Assembly (NCBI RefSeq): GCF_900106555.1
Contig: NZ_FNOE01000003.1
Coordinates: forward strand, 124,001 to 188,000
Direction of reading: 5' to 3'
DNA length: 64,000 nucleotides
From: Nitrosomonas oligotropha
GTDB lineage: Bacteria > Pseudomonadota > Gammaproteobacteria > Burkholderiales > Nitrosomonadaceae
Each line of letters starts with the position of its first letter. Position 1 is the first letter of the stretch. A program made the position numbers and the translations under genes. The notes below the pieces were generated by a model. It was not told the origin of the DNA. It made no database searches and saw only the letters and a program-made list of their open reading frames with translations. Below are positions 536 through 45,322 of this stretch, one piece after another.

Positions 536-3061
536 ATGAAACGAATGTTATTTAATGCGACCCAACCTGAAGAGTTGCGAGTTGCAATCGTCAATGGTCA
601 GACACTGATCGACCTTGACATAGAATCTATCAGTAAGGAACAACGTAAAAGCAATATCTACAAAGCTGTCATCACACGAATTGAACCCAGTCTGGAAGCC
701 GCATTTGTAGATTATGGCTGCGAACGTCACGGTTTTTTACCCTTCAAAGAAATAGCCTCCTCTTGTCTTGCCGAAAATGGTACCGCCAATGGCCGTATTC
801 AGGATCTATTGCAAGAAGGCCAGGAATTAATCGTACAAGTCGATAAAGATGAGCGTGGCACAAAAGGCGCCGCGCTGACAACCTATATCTCGCTGGCTGG
901 CCGGTATCTGGTTTTAATACCCAACAATCCCAATAGCGGGGGCGTATCACGCCGTATCACCGGTGAAGAACGCAACGATTTACGCGAAGTGATCGCGCAG
1001 CTCCAAGTTCCTGATGGAATGAGCATCATTGCCAGAACTGCCGGAATCGGCCGCAGCACGGAAGAGTTGCAATGGGATTTGAATTACCTGACACAGCTCT
1101 GGTATGCGATTGAGGAAGCAGCCAATCATCAGGATGGTGTTTTTCTGATCTATCAGGAAAGCAGCTTGGTGATTCGCGCGATCCGCGACTATTTCAGCCA
1201 GGAAATCGGTGAAATCTTAATCGACAGCCGCGACATCTATGAACAAGCCAGTCAATTCATGGCGCATGTCATGCCCGCCAATGTTGATCGCCTGAAGTTT
1301 TATCACGACGATGTGCCGCTTTTTTCACGCTTTCAGATCGAACATCAGATAGAAACGGCCTATTCCAGGCAGGTTACGCTTCCTTCCGGCGGCGCAATTG
1401 TGATTGATCACACAGAAGCGTTGGTATCGGTTGACGTCAACTCAGCACGCGCTATCCGTGGATTGGATATTGAACATACTGCTTTAAATACCAATCTTGA
1501 AGCCGCTGATGAAATCGCCCGGCAATTGCGCTTGCGCGACTTGGGCGGATTGATCGTCATCGACTTTATTGATATGGATGTGCAGCGCAATCAACGTGAA
1601 GTTGAAGCCAGGTTACACGAAGCATTGCGGCAAGATCGCGCGCGCATCCAAGTTGGAAAAATATCGCGTTTTGGCCTTCTGGAGTTATCACGGCAACGCC
1701 TGCGCCCTTCCCTGGGTGAAAGCAATTATATTCCGTGCACACGCTGCCAAGGTACCGGATTTATCCGCGGAACCGATTCTTCGGCACTGCATGTGCTAAG
1801 AATCATCCAGGAAGAAGCCATGAAAGAAAACACCAGTGCATTGCACGTCCAGCTTCCAGTGGATGTGGCCACTTACCTTCTGAATGAGAAGCGAGCGGAA
1901 ATTTATGATATTGAAGTGCGACAGCGGATCAGTATCGTCCTCATACCTAATATCCATATTGAAACACCCACATACAATATCACTCGAATACGCCACGAAG
2001 ACAGCAAAGCAAACGAATCCGTAGCAAGTTATAAGCTGGTCGAAAAAAATACCGAGGAAAACAACCTGGTCGTTTCCGAGCAAAGAAACAAGCCCACCCG
2101 CCCTCAAGCCGCAGTCCAAGGCATAACACCCGCTCAACCTGCACCGATCCGCGAAGATAGATCACGCGATACCTCGCTGCTGGATAAATTTTTCAGCTGG
2201 TTTAAGCCCGCACACAGCGAAGAAGCAAGGATTGATCTTGAAGAAAAGCCGGTTGATATGGATAAAACCCGGCAGCAGGAGCGCGGACGCTCGCGCGGAC
2301 GGCGTGGACGCAACCGGAATGAACGCAAAGATACTTCCGCACAAAAACCAGCCAAGCAAAACGATGCCCCAGATTCAACCGGTGCAGCGCAGGATTTCAA
2401 TAATCCGGAATCCGGACAATCACCGCAATATCCGGTAGCCGCAGAATCCCCAAGGAACAATCCGAGGAGAACCGCTCAGCCAGTGACCGCAGACTTTGTG
2501 GAAGCCGCCGAGATTAACGATCTTTCTGCTGCGGAAACCGAAAGCGCTGAAGGCAACGTTACGAAAACCGATGAACGCAGACGAAATCGCCGGCATCGTG
2601 GCAATAAAAACCGCGACAATAACGGACCAGGAATAAATGCTGCGGAAAACCACGAAACTGTGACGGACGAAGCGCCGGGGGATACTGTACAACATGATGA
2701 ATATCCAGTCAGCCTGCAACCGGTGGTGGTAGTAGCGGAAGCTATGCCTGTTAGCGAAGATTCACCGCCTCCCGCTGTTAAAAAGCAATCCAGCAGGAGA
2801 GCACCGGCGGTCGATCAAACCGTGCAAAACAGTATTATTCCACCGGAATCCGCACCAGTTCCAACGCCAATAGCGGAAATCAGTGCACCTAAGGAACTTC
2901 CGGATTTAAGCAAGAGCGGCTTGATCATGATAGAAACACCGCCCGAAAAGGTCGAAATGGTGATTGAAGAAATCATCATCCCTAAAAGACCGCGTAGAAG
3001 GGTTAGAAAAGCCGCTACGACGCCAACTGAACCGCTGATGCAAGTTGAAACGCGCGAATAA
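536..3061 (+). CDS. rne: Ribonuclease E (Rne/Rng family endoribonuclease)
   Basis: RNase E cleaves single-stranded AU-rich RNA, matures rRNA and tRNA and organises the RNA degradosome at the inner membrane. The N-terminal half shows an S1 domain (about residues 38-120), the DNase I-like catalytic region with Asp in LVSVDVNS (about 298) and Asp in IVIDFIDMD (about 341), and the zinc-link CTRCQGTG (about 401-408) that joins protomers in the tetramer. From about residue 500 the protein is low-complexity, with arginine-rich clusters near 581-600, 681-695 and 818-828, likely RNA-binding or partner-binding microdomains. At 841 residues it is shorter than the E. coli protein (1061) but far longer than RNase G, so Rne is preferred. 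It starts at the ATG after a weak AAGG. It converges on polA. Confidence 0.95.
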
Positions 3062-41606: not shown

Positions 41607-42518
41607 ATGATCGAACACAGCCACCTGAAAATCATTCAAGCGCTGCACACCAACGGCACCCTGACCGAAGCCGCCAATACGCTCTGCCTCAGTCAGCCCG
41701 CGTTATCGCATCAGATCGGTTATCTGGAAAAGAAACTCGGAGTCAAATTGTGGGAACGCGAAGGCCGCAGCTTGCGCCTGACGCAGGCGGGCCTACTGCT
41801 ATTGGAAACCGCCCAGCAAGTGCTACCGGTGCTGGCGCAAGCGGAGAAAACGCTGGTAGCGTACGGTGAAGGCCGGCAAGGCATCTTGCGCATCGGCGTG
41901 GAATGCTACCCCTGCTTTGAATGGCTCACCGGTATGATCGGCCAATACATGCGGCAAATGCCCGGCATCGACGTCGACATCGTGCAGAAATTTCAATTCT
42001 CGGGATTGGAAGGTCTGCTCAACCAGCATATCGATGTTCTGATCACACCTGATTGGGTCAAAAAAGAAAAAATCGATTATGAAATTCTGGCGGAATATCA
42101 ACTGGTGCTACTGGTATCTGTTGATCACCCACTGGCAGACACTCGATTCGTAACGCCGGAGCTTTTGTGCAAGGAAACTTTGTTAACCTTCCCGGTGCCG
42201 CTCGAACGCCTGGATATCTTGACGCATTTCCTGACACCCGCACACCTCGAACCGGAAAAATTGAAACAAATCGAATCCCTGGAAATCATGCTGCAAATGA
42301 CCGCCCTCAACCGCGGTGTGTGCGTCCTGCCGGAATGGCTCGCCGACATCAAGAACAAGGATTTGCAGCTCAAAAAAATCCAAATCGGCGATCAAGGGCT
42401 TTTTCAGAAATTGTATTTGGCGATGCGGGAGGCAGATAATACGGTTTCGTATATCCGGCAGTTTATTGGGGTGGGGCAGAAGGCTGCGAAGAATCCGATC
42501 ATTCAAAAATTTGAGTAA
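41607..42518 (+). CDS. metR: LysR-family regulator MetR
   Basis: A homocysteine-responsive activator of metE. The winged helix-turn-helix occupies residues 1-60 (LTEAANTLCLSQPALSHQIGYLEKKLG) and the periplasmic-binding-like co-inducer domain spans about 90-295. The start MIEHSHLKIIQAL matches MetR proteins, in contrast to the usual LysR start. The divergent metE supports the specific name. Its stop is only 2 bases from the stop of the convergent SIR2 gene. Confidence 0.93.
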   Translation: MIEHSHLKIIQALHTNGTLTEAANTLCLSQPALSHQIGYLEKKLGVKLWEREGRSLRLTQAGLLLLETAQQVLPVLAQAEKTLVAYGEGRQGILRIGVECYPCFEWLTGMIGQYMRQMPGIDVDIVQKFQFSGLEGLLNQHIDVLITPDWVKKEKIDYEILAEYQLVLLVSVDHPLADTRFVTPELLCKETLLTFPVPLERLDILTHFLTPAHLEPEKLKQIESLEIMLQMTALNRGVCVLPEWLADIKNKDLQLKKIQIGDQGLFQKLYLAMREADNTVSYIRQFIGVGQKAAKNPIIQKFE

Positions 42519-42520
42519 AA

Positions 42521-44620
42521 TCAAGACAAAGCATCTTGACAGCAAAACCTCAGTTTCTCTCCCGAACCACACGGGCATTCGTCATAAGGCCCTAATCTCT
42601 GACGTTTAATTTCTGCTTCTAATAAGGTACGACTACGTTTTCTCCAACGAGAAATTTGAGTATCTGAATTACGAAGATCCCCCCAAACTACTGGCGTGGA
42701 TAATGAAGAATTTTTCTGAGGAATAAATAATCCAGAAAATTGGTCTCGTGCTTGTTGGAGAACTGCTACTGGAATAGCTTGATTCAAACCAGAATTGATC
42801 GCTGTAACGATTTGACTTCCATTATCCGCTGCGAGCGACTGTGCAGTCTCTCGCCGGAAATTTGCACCGGTTGAAGACTCACGAAATTTTATTATTCCGA
42901 AAAGCAAATCTGGATTTTTCCTTATTATTTCTCCAACATCAGAGTTGAAACGTCCTGTTAATACATAACTGGCAGCATCCTGAGCCCATTGTTCAGTTTC
43001 AGTAGCAGAAAACGCTACACTCGCCTGTTTTTCGCTACCAAAAATCATTCTGGCCGAACTAGCTTGAATGTGCTGACAGATAATTCCACTGCTTATCACT
43101 TTAGCAAGCCTAAGTGCTGGGAATGACAACCACCGAGGAATGACATTTCTCGGTGTACCCTGACTAATCCCTAACATGCGGCGTATTGAAGGATTCATGA
43201 GCGCCCCGAGTGTTTTTTCTATAACAGAATTCGACAGTTTCGATTTTGATACATCAAAAATAGATGCTTCAAGAAGTTGAAAAAGTTTCTCTGCGATCTT
43301 TTCCTTACCTGCGGCAGGTAAAATCTGGAAGCGAATGCGTTCGGACACACTAGGCAAAGATTTTTTACCTAAAATATCAAGATCGACCATCATCAGACCA
43401 CCAATTGGCGACTGTTCATCAAAAAAGCCAATCGCAGAAACTGATGGAGGGATAACCAAACGAAGTGAGCCATTTTCAACAAAAATCCAAAACGCCTCGG
43501 GGCCAAGAAGGTCATGCACACGTGCTAAATGGTCTATTGATACACAAACTATGTCGAAACACAGTAATCCAACAACAATATCATGCAGAGCCGAATAGTT
43601 ATAAGACTCAATTTCACCGTTAACATAACCTTCCCCAATAATCACCTGTGGCTGAACTGCACCCGGAAATGGCTCTAAATTTAATGTCTGAGAAGTTGTC
43701 CAACTACCTGGGGTTATAAGATCAGCAAGATAGTAGATGCTATGATGACTAGAAACCTCTTCTTTACCCTCGTTAACTACCTGTATTGATTGACTTGATG
43801 CGAAATCAGCAATTACTTCCAATACTTGAAGAGCATCACGGTGATCGGTCGCATCAGGTACATATCGAATTCGTCGTACTGTTGCAGGAAGCTCGTTTCG
43901 TTCTTCCGATGTAACTATGAAGTGTGGCCCTACACCGAATAATGGGCGTATAGTCGAACACGCCCGCAGGTTTCGAAACACGTATTCATCTCGCAAACCA
44001 TATCCAAGAAACAGTACAGTTGTATTCGAAAATATTGACTGTATAGCCTCAAGATAGCCATTCTCCAATTGAAGTGACTCGTAATCGTGCGTTGAGAAAA
44101 TCATGGACTCTACCGAGCTAACAGAACCATGTAGCTTGCAAATGAATTTTGATCGTTGATGAAGTAACTGTGGAAGACGTTCGATATCGGAACGCTGAAT
44201 GGTTATATGTTCTGGCAAACTATGTTCCAGCGCCTCATCTACGTTAGTTGTAACTATGTAAACGTTTGGGATCTTACATATCGCTCTTATAAAACGTCTG
44301 TATACCCCAGTGGCATGTTGTGGACGAAACTGATCTGACAAGAATGTGAAATACCGCGACTGGTTCGCAATGCGCATTTGTTCGAATAACTCGGGATATT
44401 TAGCTCCCTCCAATAATCGAGAAGAAAAAACTCCATCGTAATTGCGTTCTTCTCTTGAAAATACAGTGTGCATCTGTTCAGCCAGATTGTTCCAGAATGG
44501 GTATTTTGCCCACGAACTTACTCCAGCACCCACCCATATTATCAAAGGACGAGTTTGATCTCGCGCAGCCGTCGTAAGTGAATTGAGCGCTTTATGAGTC
44601 TCTTGGTCACTACTAAACAA
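42521..44620 (-). CDS. SIR2-domain protein with C-terminal SEC-C zinc motif, putative anti-phage defence
   Basis: A 699-residue protein. The N-terminal SIR2 domain (about 24-225) has GAGVS (31-35) for NAD binding, TTNVDEALE with Asn126 and Asp128, KLHGSV with catalytic His164, and FLGYGLRDE (205-212), the layout of SIR2 NADases used in bacterial defence (Thoeris ThsA, DSR and prokaryotic Argonaute systems). About 450 residues with no recognised domain follow. The end is a SEC-C motif CPCG-x6-FCC (Cys682, 684, 693, 694). Translation starts at TTG 8 bases after GGAG. The gene is more AT-rich than its neighbours, stands alone, ends 2 bases from metR and has a 282-base leader. NAD depletion on infection is inferred, not shown. 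Transfer is likely. Confidence 0.88.
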   Translation of the reverse strand: MFSSDQETHKALNSLTTAARDQTRPLIIWVGAGVSSWAKYPFWNNLAEQMHTVFSREERNYDGVFSSRLLEGAKYPELFEQMRIANQSRYFTFLSDQFRPQHATGVYRRFIRAICKIPNVYIVTTNVDEALEHSLPEHITIQRSDIERLPQLLHQRSKFICKLHGSVSSVESMIFSTHDYESLQLENGYLEAIQSIFSNTTVLFLGYGLRDEYVFRNLRACSTIRPLFGVGPHFIVTSEERNELPATVRRIRYVPDATDHRDALQVLEVIADFASSQSIQVVNEGKEEVSSHHSIYYLADLITPGSWTTSQTLNLEPFPGAVQPQVIIGEGYVNGEIESYNYSALHDIVVGLLCFDIVCVSIDHLARVHDLLGPEAFWIFVENGSLRLVIPPSVSAIGFFDEQSPIGGLMMVDLDILGKKSLPSVSERIRFQILPAAGKEKIAEKLFQLLEASIFDVSKSKLSNSVIEKTLGALMNPSIRRMLGISQGTPRNVIPRWLSFPALRLAKVISSGIICQHIQASSARMIFGSEKQASVAFSATETEQWAQDAASYVLTGRFNSDVGEIIRKNPDLLFGIIKFRESSTGANFRRETAQSLAADNGSQIVTAINSGLNQAIPVAVLQQARDQFSGLFIPQKNSSLSTPVVWGDLRNSDTQISRWRKRSRTLLEAEIKRQRLGPYDECPCGSGEKLRFCCQDALS

Positions 44621-44902
44621 ATTGATCTCTCCAGTTGATAATCAAAGCAGTTTGATTCAGCTTTATAAACAGCAAAATCCAAGTACGCAATAGAATACTA
44701 ATTAAGAATTTTTACTTGTGTATTCCTCGTTAATAGAGATATTGAGTATTTCTTGAGCATTACCAAATATACAACCATGCTACATGGATATAAAACTACC
44801 AAAGTTATGATATCCGAATCTCCCATTGTGCTTCCCCTAACTATATCTTCATCGCAAAATATCCAGTTAAACTATCGGCCTTTCTAAATTCAAATAATTC
44901 AC

Positions 44903-45322
44903 ATGGACGAACAATCAAGCCTAATCGCGTTATTCACCAGCAGTTTTCTCGCTGCTACCCTACTTCCCGGTGGATCGGAGGCGGTACTCGTGGGGGTGTT
45001 ATTGGCGTATCCCGATTTGCATTGGCAGGCGCTGATTTTGGCGACCGTCGGCAATACGCTCGGAGGGATGAGTTCGTATCTGATTGGCCGGTTGCTGCCG
45101 GATGAAAAGACCGTGTTGAAGAAAGCCGGTGGAAATGCACGCGGGCTGGAATGGGTGCGGCGGCATGGCACGCCTATTCTGTTGTTATCGTGGGCGCCGT
45201 TGATTGGCGATTTGTTGTGTGTGGCCGCAGGGTGGTTGCGCACCAATTGGCTATGGGCTTTGTTATTTATTGCAGCGGGGAAATTCGCGCGCTATTGGGT
45301 GATTGCGGTTGCGGTGAACTGA
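44903..45322 (+). CDS. YqaA family membrane protein (DedA/VTT-like)
   Basis: 139 residues with about four hydrophobic segments (about 6-26, 45-63, 90-110 and 114-136). GNTLGGMSSYLIGRLLP and the basic KKAGGNARGLEWVRRHG loop fit the YqaA/SNARE-associated (VTT) fold; DedA-family proteins translocate or maintain phospholipids at the inner membrane. It shares the 282-base spacer with the divergent SIR2 gene and converges on grxD with a strong hairpin between them. Confidence 0.82.
   Translation: MDEQSSLIALFTSSFLAATLLPGGSEAVLVGVLLAYPDLHWQALILATVGNTLGGMSSYLIGRLLPDEKTVLKKAGGNARGLEWVRRHGTPILLLSWAPLIGDLLCVAAGWLRTNWLWALLFIAAGKFARYWVIAVAVN

Follow-up and report, generated by a model that had tools for sequence, protein, structure and literature searches.

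What does a solitary SIR2 gene do between two core genes of the ammonia oxidiser Nitrosomonas? SIR2 NADases are a known effector class, and few of their sensors are understood. In the window analysed here, a stretch of 64,000 nucleotides on contig C73 of a 3.32-Mb Nitrosomonas genome, the initial annotation had proposed such a gene, acquired and acting alone, as a possible anti-phage NADase. We consider it probable that the product is a self-contained abortive-infection protein, in which an infection-triggered NADase would be combined with a sensor in the middle region. The gene and its immediate surroundings comprise the following features.

42521..44620, minus strand: SIR2-SEC-C gene, 699 aa, with three full-length relatives 88, 76 and 69% identical
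44627..44632, minus strand: ribosome-binding site GGAGAG, 6 nt 5' of the TTG start
41607..42518, plus strand: metR, left flank of the hotspot
44903..45322, plus strand: yqaA-like gene, right flank of the hotspot
44858..44875, plus strand: AATATCCAGTTAAACTAT, upstream of yqaA and near the right edge of the insert

The annotated reading frame of 699 codons from a TTG (42521-44620, minus strand) was confirmed, together with its upstream GGAGAG. The four family copies have a similar start context, and TTG is also the start codon in L008 and L009. The copy in genome G020 (L010, 11795 region) lacks ATG, GTG and TTG at the homologous start and has an apparent CTG start after GGAGG; in L008, an alternative in-frame TTG further upstream is possible and would give 711 aa. 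The neighbours look like ordinary core genes (metE, metR, grx, prfA, hemA and one for a yqaA-like membrane protein), named by reading and without a family scan. Since metR is opposite in direction and the 2-bp gap already reported (42519-42520) joins two 3' ends, metR and the SIR2-SEC-C gene are convergent. On the other side, the 282-bp spacer described as a leader exists (44621-44902), but its final ~45-60 bp resemble yqaA's own upstream region at some empty sites, and stretches like AATATCCAGTTAAACTAT occur at some empty and some occupied metR-yqaA sites. The gap therefore appears to have been filled between the metR stop and the upstream region of yqaA. Promoter and terminator scans gave no signal above shuffled sequences, and the direct repeats near the gene were short (15-21 nt) and imperfect, with no clear sign of a transposon.

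The deviant composition is evident, with a GC content of 42.2% and a GC3 of 0.32 versus 51.5-55.2% and 0.57-0.64 in five neighbours. The description of the gene as stand-alone also holds: in the window and G020 inserts it is the sole ORF (ORFs of at least 80 and at least 90 aa), except for an 87-aa antisense ORF inside the gene. The L008 insert carries further genes beside it, including a Fic ORF, so the three copies have no additional cargo in common.

The family was found in four of 85 Nitrosomonas genomes and, by the searches made, seems restricted to Nitrosomonas. Three copies lie between metR and yqaA, and the fourth (L009) is elsewhere. Between the window and L008, dS was 0.31 for the gene (0.16 for the SIR2 part) versus 0.72 for metR, 1.09 for yqaA, 1.10 for metE and 1.81 for hemA; between the window and G020 it was 0.88 versus 1.43-1.96 for the core neighbours, values above about 1 being saturated. 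As the dS of the gene falls below that of the flanking core genes between carriers, the gene has moved horizontally, the simplest reading being that it spread after host divergence. Its acquired nature is supported by the few carriers, by its absence from this locus in many relatives (12 of 32 resolvable sites empty), by the low dS and by the composition. The dN/dS ratio was 0.16-0.23 over six family pairs, indicating purifying selection. Within the gene, residues 285-420 differ from the window by a dS of 0.43 in G020 versus 0.51 in L008, whereas the SIR2 part differs by 0.86 and 0.16, respectively, and this discordance suggests recombination. A decaying or non-functional insert might be suspected from the TTG and CTG starts and the low GC3, but four open copies, the dN/dS values and the conserved active-site and SEC-C residues reduce this explanation to a near-negligible chance.

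The fourth copy is located as follows.

L009 2724-10013: Lon-like to alaA region, with the fourth copy of the gene after the Lon-like gene

The distance from the Lon-like gene to alaA was 157 bp in L201, 3153 bp in L195, 3672 bp in L191 and 4851 bp in L009; the comparison covered 20 relatives, and in the other 17 no alaA was found in the stretch. The Lon-like-alaA interval may thus be a second variable site, on thin evidence. No known defence gene adjoins the fourth copy in the stretch read.

We then consider the metR-yqaA gap itself. The yqaA gene was found in 82 of the 85 genus genomes, and 81 yqaA loci were checked for a same-strand metR upstream. Thirty-two sites were resolvable, 12 of them empty (87-161 bp) and 20 wider (313 to 13,335 bp). 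The 49 loci outside this split, among them that of the genome of L009 (L103), comprise 29 with more than 10 kb upstream and no metR, and 20 with a shorter upstream stretch. Those 29 loci have either another gene order or a larger insert, so metR-yqaA is not a genus-wide arrangement. The control gap, yqaA-grx, stayed below 250 bp at every one of the 32 resolved loci and, overall, at 77 of 78. The SIR2-SEC-C family occupies three of the 20 wide sites (window, L010 and L162). Thirteen of the 17 wide sites lacking the gene were scanned with PADLOC through 19 selected proteins (10 + 9). The remaining four were two short gaps (L131 and L140), L087, with Fic in two ORFs, and L105, whose 13 kb look like common genes together with a transposase of IS3 type; the scan likewise did not extend to the Fic ORF adjoining the L008 copy. 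PADLOC-family genes were present at 10 of these 13 sites. SoFic matches occurred at four slot sites (L085, L086, L089 and L094), and Olokun at three, namely L088 and L094 (OloA/OloB; L094 also has a SoFic-type Fic) and L109 (OloB alone scanned). Fic genes of the SoFic type are not necessarily defensive in all hosts. Other occupants of the slot are listed below.

L091 10103-13936, minus strand: DSR1 in the metR-yqaA slot
L095 1598-5428, plus strand: DSR1 in the metR-yqaA slot
L108 4767-8705, plus strand: DSR1 in the metR-yqaA slot, as two ORFs (704 and 605 aa) matching successive parts of the model
L083 1240-2583, minus strand: FRG-domain protein of 447 aa (PDC-S15 candidate family), sole slot gene, in an insert of 31% GC
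L085 9600-12050, minus strand: SIR2 plus nSTAND NTPase protein of 816 aa, in the slot, reminiscent of Avs5
L102 1390-2709, plus strand: slot protein with a CoiA-type nuclease domain by Pfam, without PADLOC match
L107 1373-2686, plus strand: slot protein without PADLOC match
L101 1453-2118, plus strand: probable membrane protein of 221 aa, alone in the slot, without family match

The scanned sites with no PADLOC match were L101, L102 and L107 (3 of 13). The L102 and L107 proteins (437-439 aa) look related and are candidate new defence genes. The tenth protein of the second scan set came from L092, a locus outside the 12/20 split, where a TIR plus Sel1-repeat protein (1309-2868, plus strand) adjoins yqaA and no metR is reached before the end of the contig.

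Seven of the 66 SIR2_2 matches in the genus lie in the metR-yqaA gap, three of them belonging to the SIR2-SEC-C family. About 0.02 would be expected in the 70 kb of insert, and four of 63 remain when the family is set aside; this comparison assumes a mean genome of 3.0 Mb, ignores shared ancestry and yields no true probability. For other bacteria, core defence hotspots have been described (PMC10250203). The role in defence put forward by the initial annotation gains indirect support from residence in this hotspot and from the PADLOC-family genes at most of the other scanned wide sites. The protein might instead be directed at plasmids or other mobile DNA, and not at phages, or be a general stress-killing toxin; SIR2-pAgo systems are reported to act on mobile elements (PMC10474274). 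However, 10 of the 13 other scanned wide sites hold genes that match PADLOC families for anti-phage systems, known or candidate, and we regard such a role as unlikely.

The N-terminal part of the protein corresponds to the following domain.

43796..44548, minus strand: SIR2 domain, residues ~25-275, from Pfam SIR2_2, the DSR2 alignment and the AlphaFold2 model of residues 1-285

Pfam SIR2_2 (PF13289) matched residues 122-241 (E 1.8e-18; 67.4 bits versus a gathering cut-off of 24.5). The motifs said to be intact were all present, with GAGVS at 31-35, TTNVD (the TTN-x-D motif) at 124-128, H164, and GYGLRDE at 206-212. Across 36 SIR2 rows, consisting of the window, the three family copies and 32 others from the loci compared (17-24% identical in the SIR2 part), residues G31, G33, T124, N126, D128, G165 and G206 were invariant, and S35, T125, H164 and D211 were conserved in at least 90%. 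In a phmmer search of the PDB, the SIR2 part matched DSR2, ThsA and KomC, and N126 and H164 aligned with N133 and H171 of DSR2 (residues counted by hand). Mutation of this DSR2 pair is reported to abolish NAD+ cleavage (PMC11087589), and N126 and H164 are the predicted catalytic residues.

The AlphaFold2 model of residues 1-285 (pLDDT 85, pTM 0.84) has an immune-type fold. The best matches in the fold search were ThsA (8bto_A), KomC/HAM-SIR2 and DSR2, followed at lower rank by SPARSA and human FAM118B; among the 50 of 720 matches listed, none had a deacetylase-type entry title. Because DSR1 rows went into the alignment used for the model, the resemblance of the model to DSR is no independent evidence, and KomC is labelled by its depositors as 'NAD-dependent protein deacetylase' as well as NADase. 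Immune NADases (DSR2, ThsA and KomC) make up most of the matches, which supports the reading of the domain as an NADase effector. The possible NADase activity put forward in the initial annotation is supported by two features only, the immune-type fold of the model and the intact predicted active site.

SIR2 is an ancient NAD-binding fold that serves deacylation too, and an NAD-dependent deacylase or other metabolic enzyme gained as neutral cargo has to be considered. Deacetylase sirtuins have a zinc ribbon of four cysteines within the SIR2 domain. Residues 1-285 contain cysteines solely at 115, 161 and 221, three scattered positions that form no CxxC pairs, and no zinc-binding Cys4 was found there. 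The fold matches listed (50 of 720) are immune-type SIR2 proteins or human FAM118B, and the presence of the gene is patchy (four of 85 genomes), all of which makes a metabolic enzyme improbable. The viral fold search (E <= 0.001) gave three matches, a Marseillevirus Sir2-family protein, a Bodo saltans virus deacylase and one unnamed protein, and PHROG 2695, a phage family of unassigned function, matched the SIR2 part (E 9.8e-12).

Beyond the SIR2 domain, three features were delimited.

42626..43765, minus strand: middle region, residues ~286-665, proposed sensor, without convincing relatives
43346..43420, minus strand: block of 25 residues with the highest variability, residues 401-425, mean pairwise identity 46% in four copies
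42536..42583, minus strand: SEC-C zinc-type motif CxCx8CC, residues 680-695, below the Pfam cut-off, invariant in 4 of 4 copies

The middle part had been described as lacking recognised homology, and this stands for ~380 residues. No convincing relative was found in 398 phylum genomes (full-profile search), in 399 order genomes (residues 280-699) or in 369 class genomes (residues 285-420). The genome matches outside the family were to SIR2, or to SEC-C plus a preceding stretch of at most ~50 residues (G788, weak, E 8.9e-5). In plasmids, residues 285-420 gave zero matches; residues 280-699, searched at E up to 10, matched 162 records, mostly YecA-type tails (E 0.7-0.8) among the 20 listed. Two other plasmid matches of residues 280-699 (E 5 and E 8) were taken as chance. 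The whole protein had no match in phages, and the pattern matches in viral contigs included none confirmed as a relative. For the 24 residues 308-331 (about 43628-43699, minus strand), Pfam (E 0.04) and PHROGs (E 0.007) both point to a T5-type phage tail-completion family, a weak match that is probably due to chance. A full-length AlphaFold2 model from the four-row family alignment (pLDDT 37) was too poor for use, and the infection sensing that the initial annotation attributed to this region stays a proposal. After residues 401-425, the next most variable segment is 276-325 (54-55%); judged from sequence comparison, such variable blocks would fit a recognition surface, but they are no proof of one.

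The C-terminal motif has the CxCx8CC pattern, with a Pfam score for SEC-C (PF02810) of 14.8 versus a cut-off of 20.4 bits, and C682, C684, C693 and C694 do not vary among the four family copies. The last ~25 residues gave weak phmmer matches in the PDB to the tails of YchJ and SecA (E 0.011-0.79). The position of the metal-type motif at the extreme C-terminus recalls SecA, YchJ and YecA; the difference is that SEC-C is joined here to an immune-type SIR2. Tails of the SEC-C type are zinc-binding and able to dock on ribosomes or SecB. Among 50 distinct SIR2-signature ORFs, some of them cut by locus ends, the tail was found in the four family copies only.

The protein resembles DSR1 and DSR2 in being a single protein with an N-terminal SIR2 domain, the shared Asn/His pair and a large C-terminal part, and the metR-yqaA slot of three relatives is taken by DSR1. 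However, it has 699 aa versus 1005 in DSR2 chains and 1276-1277 in slot DSR1, it carries the SEC-C tail, and DSR1 models match it solely at residues ~25-217. The intact slot DSR1 proteins score 2118 and 2149 bits over 1275 model positions, whereas the best Dsr match here covers 24-209 of 1227 (48 bits), and NCBIfam Dsr2 gives 13.9 versus a cut-off of 1400 bits. ThsA of Thoeris heads the fold matches of the SIR2 domain and scores 49.9 bits over the SIR2 region, but the match is limited to residues 26-216, the C-terminal part of the ThsA models has no counterpart, and the insert contains no ThsB/TIR gene. The best PADLOC score was obtained with Lamassu LmuA carrying SIR2 (PDLC03856; 56.9 bits, best stretch residues 122-278), the remainder of the protein being unmatched. 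Lamassu is defined by an SMC-type LmuB, and the insert has no SMC-like LmuB, its neighbours being metE, metR, yqaA and grx by reading. Avs5 likewise has a SIR2 N-terminus on a large protein, and a SIR2-nSTAND protein sits in the same slot (L085), but no STAND NTPase match was found in Pfam up to E 10. The SIR2 fold also matches SIR2-APAZ/SPARSA (8y80_E); for SIR2-pAgo, Pfam and PADLOC returned only SIR2, SEC-C and the weak T5_p143 stretch, and there is no extra gene in the insert. As their defining parts were looked for and not found, we do not file the protein as DSR, Thoeris, Lamassu, Avs5 or SIR2-pAgo. Our best reading is that it works like DSR2, with a new putative sensor, and belongs to none of these five classes.

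Another possibility is that the protein is the SIR2 effector of a wider alarm, activated by a nucleotide or protein signal from genes elsewhere, as ThsA is by ThsB. The rank of ThsA in the fold search agrees with this, and the window genome has five SIR2_2 matches, so other immune loci may exist; nevertheless, ThsA models match residues 26-216 only and the three slot copies share no extra cargo, and we consider such an arrangement doubtful. The second SIR2_2 gene of this genome (L011 7422-9495, plus strand, contig C23) is followed by a 314-aa ORF without Pfam match and lies near the contig end, beside a short ORF resembling the start of a type I methylase.

We favour a self-contained abortive-infection protein, which might operate as follows. 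At rest, the SIR2 domain would be kept inactive. The lineage-specific middle region would recognise a phage product or an infection-induced change, possibly aided by the SEC-C tail. Recognition would switch on the SIR2 domain and hence NAD+ hydrolysis, and the loss of NAD+ would stop growth or kill the cell before phage maturation. There is a smaller chance, slim though not trivial, of an undescribed single-protein immunity, known so far from Nitrosomonas only, with a new sensor fold, a SEC-C tether to ribosomes or Sec/SecB that would inspect nascent phage proteins, and interchangeable SIR2 effectors in the slot.

In the literature covered, mostly without subscription journals, we found no study of Nitrosomonas defence systems or hotspots and no SIR2 plus SEC-C phage-defence protein; both words occur in one Vibrio phage paper (PMC12038007). 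The gene is a compact one-gene case: its candidate sensor region has no convincing match in the libraries searched, and its SEC-C tail is absent from the other SIR2 ORFs compared. A lytic phage of N. europaea, reported as recently isolated (PMC13356812), could permit testing in a natural relative. The metR-yqaA slot, with SIR2 genes, Olokun, SoFic and others in different relatives of this ammonia oxidiser, is a place to seek further defence genes.
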